From: an uncultured Demequina sp.
GTDB taxonomy: Bacteria; Actinomycetota; Actinomycetes; Actinomycetales; Demequinaceae
Reading direction: 5' to 3'
DNA: 31,249 nt
NCBI GenBank assembly: GCA_937925595.1
Contig: CALALQ010000358.1
Span: 1 to 31,249, forward strand
The notes below the pieces were generated by a model, which saw only the letters and a list, made by a program, of their open reading frames with translations, searched no databases and had not been told where the DNA came from. A program made the translations under genes and the position numbers. Positions within the stretch are counted from its first letter, which is position 1. Each line of letters opens with the position of its first letter. Shown here piece after piece: positions 21,673-30,774 of the stretch.

Positions 21673-22305
21673 CTAGGGAAGAATCCCCATGAACGTCGAC
21701 CCCTCATAGCAGGGGGCTCGCGACATACCTGACTCAGTCACCTGTTCCTCTGACACGGCGTAGAGCAACTCGGTGGCTGTGGCGCCGGGGTCCACCGTGA
21801 CGCCACGATCAGCAAGACAGTTGACGATGAACTCTCGCTGGTCCTCAAAGGTCGCGAGATACGCGTCAATCGCTACCGGCTGCCCCAAGTAGAACGAATC
21901 CACGAAAGCGAAGTGCTTGGCGTCGCACTCTACTGAGAGTTGTGATGCCTGGTCTTGCGTGAGGCCGGGCGGGTCTCGGTACCGCATGGACGGGTGAGGA
22001 AGACCGGGATAGATGTCCTCGGGCTCATCCACGACAACTGTGAACCCCGCTTCCTCCAGGCACTCGACACCCGCCACGAACTGAACGCTCAGGTCATCAA
22101 ATGACAGCGTGCCCTTCTGCAGCGCGCGCTCAAGGAGCGCCACCTGCTCTGGACTGGCGCCGCCCTGCCGAGCTTCGGCGACGAGTGAAGACAAATCTGG
22201 TCTGGGCACGGACGGCGCCTCGTGATTCCGGTTGTCCGCGGTGCATGCGCTGGTCGCCATTGAAAGGAACATGGCTACCAGCGCCGCACGGTACAGAATC
22301 GTCAC
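21673..22305 (-). CDS. Putative lipoprotein coupled to a small secreted protein
   Basis: A 210-residue protein with a signal peptide and a lipobox-like ATSAC (Cys21). The mature part begins with a helix (LSSLVAEARQGGASPEQVALLERALQKGTLSFDDL) and then carries four Cys, in VECLEEAG, SVECDAKH, VNCLADRG and APCYEG, a set that could form two disulfides. The pattern (gap between ADGAS-like helix, Cys-rich body) recalls uncharacterised lipoproteins I associate with actinobacterial adaptor/ABC exporter loci; that is memory, not a search. GTG 22305 shares its first base with the last base of the upstream gene's TAG stop, so the two are translationally coupled. It ends 30 nt short of the metE promoter region. 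Confidence 0.65.
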   Translation of the reverse strand: MTILYRAALVAMFLSMATSACTADNRNHEAPSVPRPDLSSLVAEARQGGASPEQVALLERALQKGTLSFDDLSVQFVAGVECLEEAGFTVVVDEPEDIYPGLPHPSMRYRDPPGLTQDQASQLSVECDAKHFAFVDSFYLGQPVAIDAYLATFEDQREFIVNCLADRGVTVDPGATATELLYAVSEEQVTESGMSRAPCYEGSTFMGILP

Positions 22306-22658
22306 TACACCGCCAGGTACGAGACGGTGATAAGGCCGCGAATGCCGTGGTCCGAGCCGACGAGCCCCGACCCGTTTGGAGCGTACTTCGTGAAGCTCGA
22401 CACCCCCGGCAGCGAGTGCGACCAAGCAGTCCAGTAGGGCGGGCCGCCTCCATTCGCCTGCAAGTACAGTCGCACTGAGAGTGTGCCGCAGGATCCAGAG
22501 ACCTTTGAGGTTTTGCCCCACCCAGAGGCGTTGGTCTTGCTGGCCGAACAGATGTTGTCGCCAAATGTCCCGGAGCCTGCCGCGGCAGGCGTCAGGCCCG
22601 CACAGACCAGGATCAGTCCAACCACAACTCCCAAGGCTCCTAAGCGCCGATTGGTCAT
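22305..22658 (-). CDS. Small secreted two-cysteine protein
   Basis: A 117-residue protein with a Sec signal peptide (Arg-Arg, hydrophobic core, cleavage after TPAAA at about residue 27). The mature protein of about 90 residues is rich in Gly, Ser and aromatic residues, with two Cys (37 and 57) likely to form a disulfide. It has no charged blocks or membrane segment. It has a strong AAGGAGGA Shine-Dalgarno. It is not a clear match to the lactococcin 972 family, though size, export and partner gene recall that class of bacteriocin. Compared with the secreted protein at 25921-26325 it shares general architecture (short Gly/Ser/Thr start, GTLS(V/I) strand, two Cys, beta-type C-terminus), a weak similarity. 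Function unknown. Confidence 0.65.
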   Translation of the reverse strand: MTNRRLGALGVVVGLILVCAGLTPAAAGSGTFGDNICSASKTNASGWGKTSKVSGSCGTLSVRLYLQANGGGPPYWTAWSHSLPGVSSFTKYAPNGSGLVGSDHGIRGLITVSYLAV

Positions 22659-25321: not shown

Positions 25322-25705
25322 CTACTCCGTGAGCTCCACGTAGCCAGCCGCGTCGAGCAGGCCGCTGGGCTCCTCCGTGATGGTCGCCTTGAAGATCCAG
25401 CCAGCCACAAACGGATCGGAGTTGATGTCCTCTGGCGTGTTCGCGAGCGCCTCGTTGACGGCAGTCACGGTGCCCGTGATGGGCGAGTACAGCTCGCTCA
25501 CGGCCTTAGTGGACTCGAGTTCTCCGCATACCTCGCCAGCGGTGACTGTGGCGCCCACCTCGGGGGCCTCGACATAGACGATGTCGCCAAGCGCATCCGC
25601 AGCGTGCGCCGTGATGCCCACGGTCACCTCGCCGCCAACGGCGACTTCGCCATCCACCCACTCGTGCTCGGGTGAGTACTGCAGGTCCTCGGGAACGTCA
25701 GCCAT
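25322..25705 (-). CDS. gcvH: Glycine cleavage system H protein
   Basis: A 127-residue lipoyl carrier of the glycine cleavage complex that shuttles the aminomethyl group between the P, T and L proteins. The start PEDLQYSPEHEWV, the ALGDIVYVEAPEVG strand and the lipoylation site ELESTKAVSELYSP (Lys67) are standard. The C-terminal NSDPFVAGWIFK-like sequence (here INSDPFVAGWIFKATI) completes the family pattern. ATG 25705 has GAGGAG 6 nt upstream. Its usual partner gcvT is on the same strand but 3.9 kb away, with an opposite-strand cassette between them. gcvP is not in the window. With gcvT cut off by the insertion, gcvH would need a promoter inside the 160 nt upstream, and none is obvious. Confidence 0.95.
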   Translation of the reverse strand: MADVPEDLQYSPEHEWVDGEVAVGGEVTVGITAHAADALGDIVYVEAPEVGATVTAGEVCGELESTKAVSELYSPITGTVTAVNEALANTPEDINSDPFVAGWIFKATITEEPSGLLDAAGYVELTE

Positions 25706-25735: not shown

Positions 25736-25752
25736 CCGCCGGTACAACGGTA
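25736..25752. repeat. Direct repeat copy next to gcvH (attachment-site-like)
   Basis: CCGCCGGTACAACGGTA, identical to 29650-29666. It contains two CGGTAC units separated by AA. Confidence 0.8.
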
Positions 25753-25875
25753 CCAAGCCATGCGACCCTCATCACCGTCGGTCCCGTGCCCAGTACGAGC
25801 AATGCGACACCACGGCTTGTCCCGCGCCCTCATTGCCAATCATGTTCTACAGTCACTGTCGGGGGGTGACATTGA

Positions 25876-25919
25876 TGTACCTCCTGACAATGCGCTTTGC
25901 GCCAACACAAAGGAGGACA
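25876..25919 (+). promoter_or_regulatory. Hairpin sequestering the Shine-Dalgarno of the secreted-protein gene
   Basis: CCTCCT (25880-25885) is an exact complement of the Shine-Dalgarno AGGAGG (25911-25916). TGT (25876-25878) also pairs with ACA (25917-25919) past a single bulged A. Inside, GCGC/GCGC (25892-25895 with 25899-25902) forms a small hairpin. Translation of the secreted protein would therefore need this stem to open. No convincing -35/-10 pair can be fixed upstream. Confidence 0.6.
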
Positions 25920-25920
25920 A

Positions 25921-26325
25921 ATGAAGAAGACCCACATTGCCCTGGCATTTGCTGGTGCGCTGCTGGCCACCGGAATTGCCGCCAGTGCAAACGCAGCCAC
26001 CGGAACCGGAAGTTTCACGGCAACCTGCGACCCCGCAAACTACGGCTTCTCGACCAACGGTGTTGCGTATCAGCACTCCACGAAGGGAACTCTGTCGATC
26101 AAGCAGACCGACACGGATCCCGAGTTGACCTCAAGCGTCAAGGCAGTCTCGCAGAATGGCAACTCTCTGAGCGTCAAGAACGTCTCCGACGGCGAGACCG
26201 CTAGTTGGTCCAATGTGCTGTCGGGCCAGTACAAGGTTTACGCACGCAGTTCTTCGCAGGTGAACTGCAACGGGTGGTTGCCCGGTAACGGCAACTACAA
26301 GTTCGAGTACAAGATCACCTACTAA
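25921..26325 (+). CDS. Small secreted two-cysteine protein of the cassette
   Basis: A 134-residue protein with a clear Sec signal peptide (MKKTH, hydrophobic core, cleavage after ASANA at about residue 25). The mature protein of about 109 residues is rich in Ser, Asn, Thr, Gly and Tyr and has two Cys (36 and 116) near its ends, suggesting a disulfide-closed beta domain. Alternating patterns such as GTLSIKQT and YKFEYKITY support beta strands. AAGGAGG lies 4 nt before the ATG, the strongest ribosome site in the region, though hidden in a hairpin. It is first in a five-gene cassette with an ABC exporter; that context resembles secreted bacteriocins such as lactococcin 972, but no family motif is evident. 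A toxin, signal or envelope protein are all open. Confidence 0.75.
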   Translation: MKKTHIALAFAGALLATGIAASANAATGTGSFTATCDPANYGFSTNGVAYQHSTKGTLSIKQTDTDPELTSSVKAVSQNGNSLSVKNVSDGETASWSNVLSGQYKVYARSSSQVNCNGWLPGNGNYKFEYKITY

Positions 26326-26338
26326 CCTCTACCCAACC

Positions 26339-26375
26339 CGGTTGCGCGGACTGTCGCGTGCGGTCCGCGCAACCG
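26339..26375 (+). terminator. Strong hairpin after the secreted-protein gene (possible attenuator)
   Basis: A perfect 13-bp stem, CGGTTGCGCGGAC (26339-26351) with its complement (26363-26375), 11-nt loop, 13 nt after the stop codon. No T-run follows, so it may act as an mRNA 3'-end stabiliser or partial terminator, making more message for the secreted protein than for the downstream genes. Confidence 0.5.
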
Positions 26376-26394
26376 TCTGAGGAGCGAACACTTG

Positions 26395-26904
26395 ATGCAG
26401 CACCGCAGGAGATATCGGTACCAGTGGGTTCTAGCGGCTTCGGTCGTGGCGACCATGTCAGCATGTAGTTCTGGGCCAGACGCAACGTGGACGACGGACT
26501 CGCCCGGCCTGGAGGGTTTACCCCACGAGGTGGTGGCGGAGCGACTTGCCGACCCCGAGTTCCGCGAGAACCTAGACCTAACTTCGCCCGACGACCAACT
26601 CGTCATGATCCAACTTCAGGTGGCCTCGACGGTATTTTGTAGAGATCTCTTTGCGAGCTACGAGAAGTGGTTGGGAACCGGCGCGGCTCCAAAAACTCCT
26701 ATATTCCTGCGGCCGGGCAAACCAGCGTCGGGTTTTGATGAGTTCGCGACCAAGTGGACGGAAACCTTCGGGGCCGCGGTCGAGTCCGGTGATCCGGAGG
26801 TTCTGCGGTCGACGCTCACAGCCTCTGGCGGTTGCGACGCCGTAGTCGTTAACCCCAGTGCCTCGAAGCGAACGATCGGCGAGTGGCTTGGAGCCCAGGA
26901 ATGA
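26395..26904 (+). CDS. Cassette lipoprotein, unknown function
   Basis: A 169-residue protein with an Arg-rich start, hydrophobic stretch and lipobox MSAC (Cys24). The mature part contains helices around LPHEVVAERLADPEFRENLDL and DDQLVMIQLQVASTVFCRDLFASYEKWL. Two Cys (in STVFCRDL and SGGCDAV) may pair. No family recognised. A GAGGAG site 10 nt upstream serves ATG 26395; a TTG just before it is less likely. It includes a TTA leucine codon (26518-26520), rare in high-GC actinobacteria. Its stop overlaps the next ATG by 4 nt (ATGA), placing it firmly in the exporter operon. In this position an immunity protein or an export partner for the secreted protein is plausible. Confidence 0.7.
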   Translation: MQHRRRYRYQWVLAASVVATMSACSSGPDATWTTDSPGLEGLPHEVVAERLADPEFRENLDLTSPDDQLVMIQLQVASTVFCRDLFASYEKWLGTGAAPKTPIFLRPGKPASGFDEFATKWTETFGAAVESGDPEVLRSTLTASGGCDAVVVNPSASKRTIGEWLGAQE

Positions 26905-27803
26905 GGTCACACGCTCCTCTAACCCTGGCGGCGGTCGCGGTCGCCTTCACCCTGGTGCTAGTCGGTTGCACAGCCGAAGAGCGGCCTCCCACGGCGGGAA
27001 TTGCGGGCGCCACGCACTCTTCAAGCCCAGCTTCGAACGGAACCACCACGGACTTGGACGCAACCATTCAGCAACGAGACTTTGCGATCAAGTATGTGCT
27101 TGACGGGATCACGCAGGCGGGCGAGGAAGTCCCCGTGCCCACGCCCCGCGGGCTCTTGTGGGAATCGAGACTTCCCGAGGGCGCGGTCGAGGAGGGTGAC
27201 CAGTTGGGCACGCTCGCTGTCGACGACTCGTACGTAGACGATGTCACGGCGCAGGCGCCACAGCGCATCGCCGAGTCCGACATTGCGATAATCGAGTCTC
27301 TAGCCGGACCGCGCTACGCGCAAATTCCTGGCAAGTTGTCGTGGCGCGACTCGGGACCGGTCATCAGCGCGACTGGTCTTGACGTCGTCGTAGACCTCAC
27401 GCCCCTGCAAGTACTGCGCCTCCAACAAGCCATATTGGCAGGAAGCGCAACCGTGGAGACAATCGTTGGCTCGCGCGACGTACCTTGCGGTGCGATGTGG
27501 ATAGCTCTCGACCGCGAGGAGGCCGAGACCGCCGGGACACTTCATTGCCGGTTACCCAGGACGGTCGAGTCAGCTCCAGGCCTGAGGGCCTCCCTGACCG
27601 TATCGACCCCGACTATTGCGAACGCGATCGTGGTGCCGAACTCGATGCTGGGCGTGGATCAAGGCGGGTACGTGATCACTGTCATCACATCCGACGGCTC
27701 CAAGACAATACCGGTGACGGTAGGCATCTCGGACGGTGTGGTCCGTGTGGTAACTACTCCCGTGCCCACGGGCTCCACTTTGGTCCCGCCTGATGTGCCA
27801 TGA
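26901..27803 (+). CDS. Lipoprotein adaptor of an ABC exporter (MacA/HlyD-like)
   Basis: A 300-residue protein with a lipoprotein signal peptide (lipobox LVGC, Cys23). The sequence has the beta-barrel features of membrane-fusion adaptors: an ELxxGDQLGTLAVDD-like lipoyl half-motif (here PEGAVEEGDQLGTLAVDD), the conserved segment ANAIVVPNSMLGVDQGGYVITVI, and a C-terminal TIPVTVGISDGVVRVVTTPVPTGSTLV that matches the last barrel strand of MacA/YknX-type proteins. A coiled-coil hairpin is not evident and no peptidoglycan-binding repeat is seen, so it is short for the family. Two internal Cys (VPCGAM, LHCRLP) could pair. It is linked by 4-nt overlaps to the lipoprotein before and the ATPase after. 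It probably bridges the permease and the wall side of the membrane. Confidence 0.75.
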   Translation: MRSHAPLTLAAVAVAFTLVLVGCTAEERPPTAGIAGATHSSSPASNGTTTDLDATIQQRDFAIKYVLDGITQAGEEVPVPTPRGLLWESRLPEGAVEEGDQLGTLAVDDSYVDDVTAQAPQRIAESDIAIIESLAGPRYAQIPGKLSWRDSGPVISATGLDVVVDLTPLQVLRLQQAILAGSATVETIVGSRDVPCGAMWIALDREEAETAGTLHCRLPRTVESAPGLRASLTVSTPTIANAIVVPNSMLGVDQGGYVITVITSDGSKTIPVTVGISDGVVRVVTTPVPTGSTLVPPDVP

Positions 27804-28510
27804 CCACGCCAGTCGTAGAACTCCGTGAAGTTGCTCTCACGTTCAACCATGGTGGCAGGACGGTTCACGCGCTTTCCGGAGTCACTGTCGGCTTCGCTTC
27901 TGGCACCTCCGCGGCGATCGTCGGGCGCTCAGGCTCGGGCAAATCCTCCCTCGTCGCCGTTGCCGGCCTCATGCGTGCTCCTAGTCACGGGACGGTCATT
28001 ATCGATGGCACGCCCGTGACGGGTCACGAACGCGCACGAACTGCCGTTCGTGCCCGCACAGTGGCGATGATCTTCCAGTCGTTCCACCTCGACCCTCGCC
28101 TCACCGCCCAAGAAAACTGCATGCTCCCGTGGTTCCTGGGGGTCGCCAAGCATACGCGATCAAAGGCGGCACGACGTGCTGACAACCTCCTGGAACGGGT
28201 GGGAATCGCACAGTTGGCGCGTAGGCCCATCCACGCCATGTCTGGTGGAGAGCGACAGCGAGTCGCTATCGCTCGAGCACTATTCTCAGAGCCGCGGCTG
28301 CTGATTGCGGACGAACCGACGGGGAACCTCGATGAGGACACGGCGGCGAATATCCGGGCGCTGCTCTTTTCCCTTCCTACCGATACCGGCGCGTCGGTCG
28401 TCGTAGTTACGCATGACATGGAGGTAGCGCGCGGTGCGGATCGGATACTGCGCCTTGAGCGTGGGAAACTCGTCGGCCGCGATCAACTTCAGACGGCGGT
28501 CCTGCCGTGA
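27800..28510 (+). CDS. ABC exporter ATPase (MacB/LolD type)
   Basis: A 236-residue ATP-binding subunit. Walker A is GRSGSGKS (42-49), the Q-loop Gln93 lies in MIFQSFHL, the signature is MSGGERQR (147-154), Walker B ends in LLIADEPTGNLDEDT (Asp171, Glu172), and His205 is the switch residue in VVVTHDMEVA. ADEPTGNLD is the hallmark of the MacB/LolD/FtsE class, which drives extrusion or mechanical signalling outside the membrane rather than classic import. ATGA overlap with the adaptor and GTGA overlap with the permease make one translational unit. Confidence 0.92.
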   Translation: MTTPVVELREVALTFNHGGRTVHALSGVTVGFASGTSAAIVGRSGSGKSSLVAVAGLMRAPSHGTVIIDGTPVTGHERARTAVRARTVAMIFQSFHLDPRLTAQENCMLPWFLGVAKHTRSKAARRADNLLERVGIAQLARRPIHAMSGGERQRVAIARALFSEPRLLIADEPTGNLDEDTAANIRALLFSLPTDTGASVVVVTHDMEVARGADRILRLERGKLVGRDQLQTAVLP

Positions 28511-29640
28511 GGGTGCTTCTCTTAACGTGGAATACGACTAGGCGCGCGCCCCTGAAGACGATTACCCTGATCCTGCTCTTTGCGATTGCTATCGTCGTGT
28601 TCGCTCTTATTTCGGAACTCAGCAGAGTGTCCAAACAAGGACTCGACGAGGGAATCGCTCGCGATAGCGGTGAACTGGGAACATACGAGGTCGCATTCGG
28701 CAATGAGCTCAACGGCGACGCGGCGTTGCGGGACCGGGTCGAGAAGCGTGTCGCAATGGCCGTTGGCGGAGAACTTGTCGCTAGTTGGATTGACCTTCCG
28801 AGCAAGAGGTCCGAGTGCCCTCCGTACGACAAGGTTGGCGATACAAAACTTCGAGTGATGTGGTCTGCATCTGGCGAACCTGTGCCACTTCCCTTCGGTG
28901 AAACGGCCGGACTGGAGACCCGCTGGTGTCTTGACGGGCTGGAGATACCCCAATCCGGCTTCTATCTGGCCGACGAGTCTCGCCGCGCGACACTCGGCGA
29001 GCGACTGTATCTGCGCCCCGACTACGCAGATCTGGTGCGGCTCAGCGATGTGTCGCCGGTCACCCACGGATTCACGCTGCACGTGGGTAGAGGTGACGCA
29101 TCTCCCCAGATCCTCGGCGAGGCCAAGTACCTTCTAGCGGAACAGGCCATGCGACTGGGCGTCGAGCCTGAGACACTCGTCTCGGTCTGGCGCGTCGATC
29201 AAGATGCGGACTCCGTCCGGGCGGCGGCGGAAGGAATATCTACGACATACGAGGTGATGCGCTGGGCGGTCTTGGGTCTCGCGGGCGCGGCAATTGTCGC
29301 TATGCAGACGACAACAGCTTCTCACCGCGCGTGGTTCTATGGTCTTGCGCGCGCGATGGGCACACGCAGTCGATCGGTCGTGACGTTGATAGCGACGGAG
29401 AGCGTAAGCATTATCGCGGGCGGCGCGCTCCTCGCACTAGCACTCCTTGCATTGGGCCAGGGGCTCGTGTACGACTTTGCCAAGTCGTCGTTTGGCGTCG
29501 AGGCTCACGTCATCAACCTGTCACTTTTCAGCGCACTGGTTGTGGGTCTCGCGATCGCAATGGCGCTCGCGATCGCCGTCCCCGTGGTCACAATCTTGCG
29601 GCGAGATCCTCTCTCGGTTCTCGAAGCTCCGCGCGGCTAA
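28507..29640 (+). CDS. ABC exporter permease (MacB/FtsX family)
   Basis: A 377-residue membrane protein with the four-helix MacB/FtsX plan: helix 1 (about residues 17-37, ITLILLFAIAIVVFALIS), a large extracytoplasmic domain (about 38-250), then three helices (about 255-275, 290-320 and 340-368). It ends with RRDPLSVLEAPRG, the usual FtsX-like C-terminus. The outer domain carries two Cys (in RSECPPYD and TRWCLDG), likely a disulfide. Codon 6 is TTA (28522-28524). Start is GTG, overlapping the ATPase stop. Likely role is moving a substrate, perhaps the cassette's secreted protein, off the outer face of the membrane, or protection against it. It ends 3 nt before the convergent gcvT stop codon. 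Confidence 0.88.
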   Translation: MRVLLLTWNTTRRAPLKTITLILLFAIAIVVFALISELSRVSKQGLDEGIARDSGELGTYEVAFGNELNGDAALRDRVEKRVAMAVGGELVASWIDLPSKRSECPPYDKVGDTKLRVMWSASGEPVPLPFGETAGLETRWCLDGLEIPQSGFYLADESRRATLGERLYLRPDYADLVRLSDVSPVTHGFTLHVGRGDASPQILGEAKYLLAEQAMRLGVEPETLVSVWRVDQDADSVRAAAEGISTTYEVMRWAVLGLAGAAIVAMQTTTASHRAWFYGLARAMGTRSRSVVTLIATESVSIIAGGALLALALLALGQGLVYDFAKSSFGVEAHVINLSLFSALVVGLAIAMALAIAVPVVTILRRDPLSVLEAPRG

Positions 29641-29643
29641 CAC

Positions 29644-30762
29644 TCAGGGCCGCCGGTACAACGGTAACGCCGCAACAGTCATCGGTTCACCCCTGCCGCG
29701 CACATCGATCAGCACCTCCGTGCCGGGCGTGGCCCACTCGGGAGCGACATAGGCCATACCAATCGGCCTGCCAAGAGTGGGGCTCGGCGCACCGGACGTC
29801 ACCGTGCCAATCACTTCGCCCGACGCTGTGGTCACCGAGTACCCGGCACGGGGGCTGCGCTTGCCATCGCCGAGCAGCCCAACGAGCTGCTGCGTGGGAG
29901 CAGCGTCGCGAGCGGTCTCGAGCGCACCGCGGCCCACGAAGTCGCCGCGCGGATTCGCGTCGGTGCCGAATGCCACCACGCGCCCAAGGCCAGCGGCGAA
30001 GGGGTTGGTCTGTCGCGACAACTCCTGGCCATAGAGCGGCATCCCGGCCTCGAGCCGCAGCGTGTCTCGAGAGGACAGTCCGCACGGCAACAGCCGATCC
30101 CCGCCGGTGGCGAGCGCCAATCGCCACACTTCGCGAGCGTCGGCAGCGGAAACGAACAGCTCAAAGCCGTCCTCTCCGGTGTAGCCGGTGCGGGCGACGA
30201 AGGCGTGGACGTCGCCGTGGAGCACAACGTTGGTGGCCGCGTAGTACGGCAGCGGGCCGATGTTGTCCGCATCGCGAGAGATCATCTCCGTCACGATCTC
30301 GACGGAGCGCGGCCCCTGGATCGCGATCAGCGCAATCTCGTTGGACTGGTCCTCGATGGAGACATTGAGGCCAAGCGAGCGCGCCATGAGCTCCTCGACA
30401 ACCACATCGCGGTTGCCCGCGTTCGCGACAATCACAAAGTGGTCCCAGTCGCGGCGATACACCACGAGGTCGTCGATGATGCCGCCATCGGGGGCGCACA
30501 TCATCGTGTACTTGGCACGGCCGAGGCCCACCGCGCCCATGCGTCCTACCAGGGCGTACTCGAGGAACTTCACAGCGTCGTCGCCGCGCACGGAGATCTC
30601 GCCCATGTGGGACAGGTCGAAGATGCCGGCGCTCGAGCGCACCGCGTTGTGCTCGGCGATGTCGCTCGTGTACCTCACTGGCATCTCCCAGCCAGCGAAC
30701 TCGACAAGAGTTGCGCCAAGGGCGACGTGTTCATCGTGGAGCACTGAGCGTGTGGCTGTCAC
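29644..30762 (-). CDS. gcvT: Glycine cleavage system T protein (aminomethyltransferase)
   Basis: A 372-residue THF-dependent aminomethyltransferase that releases ammonia and forms 5,10-methylene-THF, which MetF can reduce. Motifs: LVEFAGWEMPVRY, GIFDLSHMGEI, GAVGLGRAKYTMMCAPDGGIIDD, YTGEDGFELFV, LRLEAGMPLYGQEL and a C-terminal GVGLPIGMAYV-like segment (here LGRPIGMAYV). The last residues ALPLYRRP are encoded by the 17-bp direct repeat that recurs beside gcvH, so the present 3' end was probably rebuilt by the cassette insertion without losing function. Start at GTG 30762 with TAGGTT 6 nt upstream (leaderless), which rules out a glycine riboswitch in front. Confidence 0.95.
   Translation of the reverse strand: MTATRSVLHDEHVALGATLVEFAGWEMPVRYTSDIAEHNAVRSSAGIFDLSHMGEISVRGDDAVKFLEYALVGRMGAVGLGRAKYTMMCAPDGGIIDDLVVYRRDWDHFVIVANAGNRDVVVEELMARSLGLNVSIEDQSNEIALIAIQGPRSVEIVTEMISRDADNIGPLPYYAATNVVLHGDVHAFVARTGYTGEDGFELFVSAADAREVWRLALATGGDRLLPCGLSSRDTLRLEAGMPLYGQELSRQTNPFAAGLGRVVAFGTDANPRGDFVGRGALETARDAAPTQQLVGLLGDGKRSPRAGYSVTTASGEVIGTVTSGAPSPTLGRPIGMAYVAPEWATPGTEVLIDVRGRGEPMTVAALPLYRRP
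29650..29666. repeat. Direct repeat copy in the 3' end of gcvT (attachment-site-like)
   Basis: CCGCCGGTACAACGGTA, identical to 25736-25752. On the gcvT strand it encodes Leu-Tyr-Arg-Arg just before the stop. Confidence 0.8.
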
Positions 30763-30768
30763 AGCACA

Positions 30769-30774
30769 AACCTA
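30769..30774 (-). promoter_or_regulatory. -10 element TAGGTT of gcvT, leaderless geometry
   Basis: On the minus strand TAGGTT is followed by tgtgct (6 nt) and the GTG at 30762. Confidence 0.5.

Follow-up and report, generated by a model that had tools for sequence, protein, structure and literature searches.

The att repeats of tyrosine recombinases range from 8 to 60 bp, and with serine integrases the shared stretch is only a few bases long, being 2 bp in one described case (PMC5704250). In Vibrio cholerae, Aux3 is integrated by its integrase between gcvT and thrS (PMC7721734). The locus analyzed here lies in a 31,249-nucleotide stretch of DNA from an uncultured Demequina sp. (the window), in which a block of five genes stands between gcvT and gcvH. 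The block resembles the CIMEs described in PMC5704250 in being flanked by att-like direct repeats, one of which completes the host gene, and in being free of integration and transfer genes. It differs from that description in showing no ICE or IME remnant and in consisting of only one operon. The likeness to Aux3 lies in an integrated element adjoining gcvT with att repeats, in the interbacterial weapon aboard and in recombination functions that have decayed in pandemic strains; as described in PMC7721734, Aux3 differs in being intergenic, in keeping a truncated integrase gene, in its other gene content and in belonging to another phylum. The proposal in the earlier note that gcvT would be a new insertion niche was weakened because Aux3 already integrates beside gcvT, between it and thrS, though intergenically (PMC7721734). 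No insertion into the coding end of gcvT was found in the literature searched. The anatomy of the block is that of a CIME or decayed island, and the novel parts are the overlap of its core with a candidate promoter and a second landing in a gcv cluster. Classification as a DDE transposon was rejected, the block containing neither a transposase gene nor terminal inverted repeats.

The five genes of the block, all intact and on the plus strand, separate gcvT and gcvH, both on the minus strand, by 3.9 kb. This same-strand pair parted by opposite-strand genes had been reported before and was confirmed from open reading frames and profile matches. The features of the locus, in window coordinates, are as follows.

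25322-25705, minus strand: gcvH, by profile match.
25736-25752, plus strand: direct repeat on the gcvH side (attR-like), an exact copy; the joined flanks match relatives.
25747-25752, minus strand: TACCGT hexamer kept in the gcvH-side repeat, inferred candidate -10 of gcvH.
25753-29649, no strand: inserted DNA lying between the two repeats; the net gain is 3914 bp.
25921-26325, plus strand: small secreted protein (SSP), 134 residues, signal peptide by eye, predicted all-beta sandwich.
26392-26904, plus strand: lipoprotein-like protein, 170 residues, second gene of the operon; open reading frame, matched in 4 of the 5 operons examined in other families.
26901-27803, plus strand: membrane-fusion-like lipoprotein; the RND_mfp model is matched weakly (E 0.002, below cut-off).
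27800-28510, plus strand: ABC transporter ATPase of the LolD/MacB/Lcn972-exporter type, by Pfam and NCBIfam matches.
28507-29640, plus strand: FtsX-domain ABC permease, 377 residues, by domain match.
29644-30762, minus strand: gcvT, by profile match; the occupied form ends in RRP, its last codons derived from the insert.
29650-29666, plus strand: direct repeat on the gcvT side (attL-like), an exact copy and the coding 3' end of gcvT.
29661-29666, minus strand: TACCGT (TANNNT) hexamer with which the gcvT-side repeat opens, made up of the rare Leu codon TTA366 and the bases after it.

The block had a GC content of 61.3%, the minimum among windows of 3.9 kb, and the remainder of the window 67.0%; GC3 was 0.67-0.75 in the cassette genes and 0.78-0.92 in the others measured, a second small pair excepted. 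The block genes are a foreign, GC-poor insertion at the gcvT end.

The repeat CCGCCGGTACAACGGTA is present as exact direct copies at 25736-25752 and 29650-29666, as the earlier note had claimed in describing 17-bp repeats around the block, one being the coding 3' end of gcvT. Of all 17-mers in the 31-kb window, it alone occurs twice on the same strand, and none is also present as its reverse complement. A scan allowing up to 3 mismatches returned only the two known places, and none of 100 dinucleotide shuffles gave two repeat places. When the 600-nt flanks were letter-shuffled (30 shuffles) the longest match had a mean of 9.7 and a maximum of 11. Beyond the core, identity between the copies resumes at TGAG, 5 of the 7 next bases agreeing, to give 22/24 identity over 24 bp. 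By a modest margin, this resumption would be easier to reconcile with an attP mimicking the gene end than with simple duplication of the target.

Exact direct repeats abutting the block directly, with the recombinase missing inside, would also be expected from transposition with a 17-bp target-site duplication, the transposase being supplied in trans. No terminal inverted repeats were found at the block ends, however; the longest inverted word between the two 40-nt ends was 4 nt, and only 5 of 20 terminal positions agreed when the ends were compared in inverted orientation. A target duplication of 17 bp is also long for common DDE transposases, the identity past 17 bp is a modest further argument, and six other copies of the operon have no duplications. 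A transposase target-site duplication is therefore quite improbable.

Relatives were examined in 47 Demequinaceae genomes, in 46 of which gcvT was found. gcvH followed gcvT on the same strand in all 46, with a gap of 9-129 nt measured between aligned ends, so the block, absent from every one of them, is a derived insertion. The contiguous empty site that the earlier note had suggested looking for in relatives was thus present throughout; the other cargo it had also suggested was not, and no second occupant of the site was found in these 46 genomes. The nearest genome (G038; GcvT 79% and GcvH 80% identical) has the gene order of the window without the block: DUF-gcvT-gcvH-nudix-methyladenine glycosylase-metF-osmC-metE. 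When the window flanks were joined at one repeat copy and aligned with G038 there was no gap at the core, and a 9-nt gap was placed further on, in an intergenic stretch. Collapsing the repeats gave a gcvT frame ending ALPLYRRS, followed by TGA, 24 nt and the ATG of gcvH with GAGGAG intact, reproducing the restoration described previously. An insertion can therefore split a conserved gene pair without breaking either gene, and the locus is a clean example of a minimal cassette integrated at the 3' end of a protein-coding gene.

Read in the sense of gcvT, the copy on the gcvT side continues into CCC TGA and so gives the end RRP before the stop. On the gcvH side the copy continues into TCG TGA, which gives the end RRS with the stop 24 nt before gcvH, and is followed by the leftover 3' end of the ancestral gcvT and by the leader of gcvH. 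Among independent GcvT proteins the closest, P0020 (88% identical), ends in RRS, and an RRP end was found in 0 of the 21 relatives next in rank (P0020-P0040), in a protein database clustered at 90% that hides variants inside the window's own cluster. The gcvH-side copy was therefore assigned as the old gene end and the insert as the source of the new one. A few distant members of Demequinaceae also have proline where the new tail has it. The insertion at the gcvT 3' end of a formerly adjacent pair, with duplication of that end, is upheld by the 46 adjacent pairs and by the change of tail from RRS to RRP.

The arrangement is likely to be that of a decayed, CIME-like element placed by site-specific recombination, with a tyrosine recombinase the most probable agent because of the 17-bp core, the position at a gene 3' end, the preserved frame and the lack of terminal inverted repeats. 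A small integrative element would have been inserted conservatively by recombination between the 17-bp core of its attP and the identical gcvT 3' end (attB). The frame and stop of gcvT would have been retained because the element's side of the core carried CCC-TGA, which would convert RRS to RRP, and the old gcvT tail would have stayed with gcvH together with the gcvH leader. One copy of the duplicated core would then finish gcvT while the other keeps TACCGT before gcvH. The element would have lost, or never carried, its recombinase, leaving a CIME-like cassette that holds one intact operon; both the recombinase class and its loss from the element are inferred.

None of the five block genes matched a recombinase family in Pfam, in agreement with the earlier description of a block without recombinase, and no relaxase or transposase was found among them. 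Outside the block, the scanned neighbours and 20 further window open reading frames also gave no match to a recombinase family in Pfam; shorter or unlikely frames were checked by eye alone. Neither the 17-mer nor a degenerate version of the site was found in any viral contig, and the Demequinaceae genomes and viral contigs searched yielded no excised circle and no recombinase associated with this core. Allowing up to 2 mismatches, the core was matched 10 times in the 47 genomes, gcvT itself accounting for 5 of these, against 49 for the backward control, so that nothing pointed to further elements using this core.

Occurrences of the operon are few and scattered. The permease was detected at E ≤ 1e-20 in 6/396 genomes of the order (G040 included), in 2/394 of the class, both already among the order's six, and in 1/18 and 2/200 of the families of G178 and G367 respectively, again the same genomes, the order, class and family draws overlapping. 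Within Demequinaceae it was detected at E ≤ 1e-3 in 5/47 genomes, only that of G040 being more than a weak partial match. The SSP was found in 4/392 genomes of the order, all with the operon, and in 1/47 of Demequinaceae; no SSP-like protein was found in the operons of G178 and G367. In G040 the same five-gene operon lies between gcvP and gcvT (L147, 1716-5398), genes that are separated by ∼50 nt in its close relatives G034 and G035. Two landings of so rare an operon in a gcv cluster are striking. Flanking repeats beyond chance were found at none of the six other operon copies examined, G040 included, and the operon as such is therefore not the mobile unit.

The presence of the same operon in the gcv cluster of G040 could point to illegitimate or homology-assisted recombination, in which the incoming DNA already had a gcvT 3' end beside the operon. 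The G040 operon, though, abuts the start of gcvT and not its end, and is in the other orientation; the homology at the window junctions is only 17-24 bp, and no donor was found with the operon at a gcvT 3' end. Such an origin is unlikely. A functional tie to glycine cleavage, by which the operon was recruited twice to the gcv locus, would account for both Demequinaceae copies (window and G040) being in that cluster although the operon is rare. Against this, five copies outside the family had no gcvT match in the 16-20 kb fetched and were placed between tRNA genes or near genes named by eye as bkd-like, glmU-like and others. The window reached no Rfam gathering score for a glycine riboswitch, no such riboswitch was found at E ≤ 1 in L147 or L115, and the window operon is transcribed against gcvT. 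This explanation is very unlikely.

The core that site-specific recombination would have used starts exactly on the TACCGT hexamer. The surrounding codons GCG-CTA-CCG-TTC-TAC (gcvT codons 365-369, window 29656-29670) are conserved at the DNA level in Demequinaceae, and in 45/46 genomes a rare codon, CTA or TTA, encodes the Leu five codons ahead of the last conserved Arg, forming TANNNT (TACCNT) together with the bases after it. As the genomes are related and the events not independent, other Leu codons in the same gcvT genes served as the control, and 0/1523 formed the pattern. The one genome without it, G041, is also that in which gcvT and gcvH lie closest together (9 nt). CTG predominates at this codon in other Actinomycetota (31/51 rows). 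TACCGT is under strong DNA-level constraint in Demequinaceae. On sequence grounds it is probably the -10 of an internal gcvH promoter, forming the first six bases of the repeat and retained in both copies. No -35 was identified for this candidate promoter, the consensus scan reporting nothing there. The conserved TACCGT in the last gcvT codons predicts an internal gcvH promoter across Demequinaceae. Upstream of gcvT, TANNNT was present 5-8 nt before a start-like codon in 41/46 genomes against 23/2300 random stretches of the same length; in the window, TAGGTT (30769-30774), six bases before the GTG start of gcvT, has the shape of a leaderless-type promoter.

There is a small but appreciable chance that the block represents a recombinase-free class of element in Actinomycetota. 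The core of such elements would be a conserved promoter element, here the -10 of the internal gcvH promoter in the gcvT 3' end, and its duplication would leave intact the target gene as well as the promoter of the gene that follows. Movement would be in trans, by a host or phage recombinase, and the landing in G040 would be a further expression of this preference for promoter junctions in the gcv cluster.

The order of the cargo operon is secreted protein, lipoprotein, fusion-like protein, ATPase and permease. Its earlier description as an exporter operon was right as to the exporter genes and incomplete, the first gene encoding a secreted beta-sandwich protein. The SSP matched nothing in Pfam at E ≤ 0.1 or in NCBIfam at E ≤ 0.01, in libraries that presumably include an Lcn972 model. 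Its structure, predicted from an alignment of eight sequences, is an eight-strand sandwich with a mean pLDDT of 78.5, residues 51-110 being mostly above 90; fold comparison gave many tied matches. The ATPase matched the LolD (181 bits) and L_ocin_972_ABC (151 bits) models and fell below the NCBIfam cut-offs in the best 25 of 192 matches. Permease relatives numbered 10 proteins at E ≤ 1e-3 among 7999 candidates scored. With its fusion-like lipoprotein, ATPase and FtsX permease the set resembles exporters of the MacAB/LolCDE and lactococcin-972 types, and differs from them in a secreted protein without family match and a permease with few relatives. Assignment as a lactococcin 972 bacteriocin cluster was rejected, the ATPase scoring 151.3 bits against the TIGR03608 cut-off of 254.85, and no gene for an Lcn972-family bacteriocin being found, the SSP having no match in Pfam or NCBIfam. 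In a PADLOC search of seven proteins there was no specific match to anti-phage defence; only the ATPase gave hits, to five models, which were read as its generic ATPase domain. The SSP is probably the exported product of the exporter, and the gene set suggests that the operon may export a secreted, perhaps antagonistic protein, making it an uncharacterised, perhaps competitive system.

Further observations were made at other loci. In G178 (L154, 9500-15298) the operon is flanked by tRNA-Glu and tRNA-Asp; further on, between tRNA-Phe and tRNA-Lys, there is a gene for a tyrosine integrase, and a 20-nt stretch of the tRNA-Asp recurs at 90% in the tRNA-Lys. In G367 (L155, 1275-10952) two exporter-like gene sets lie near each other; one of them has a small secreted protein of another kind (by eye) and, nearby, a transposase-like HTH gene. 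The window itself contains a second GC3-poor pair (21673-22658), a small secreted protein and a putative lipoprotein between metE and osmC, at which no flanking repeat of 9 bp or more was found. In G038 metE and osmC are ∼0.14 kb apart, without this pair.
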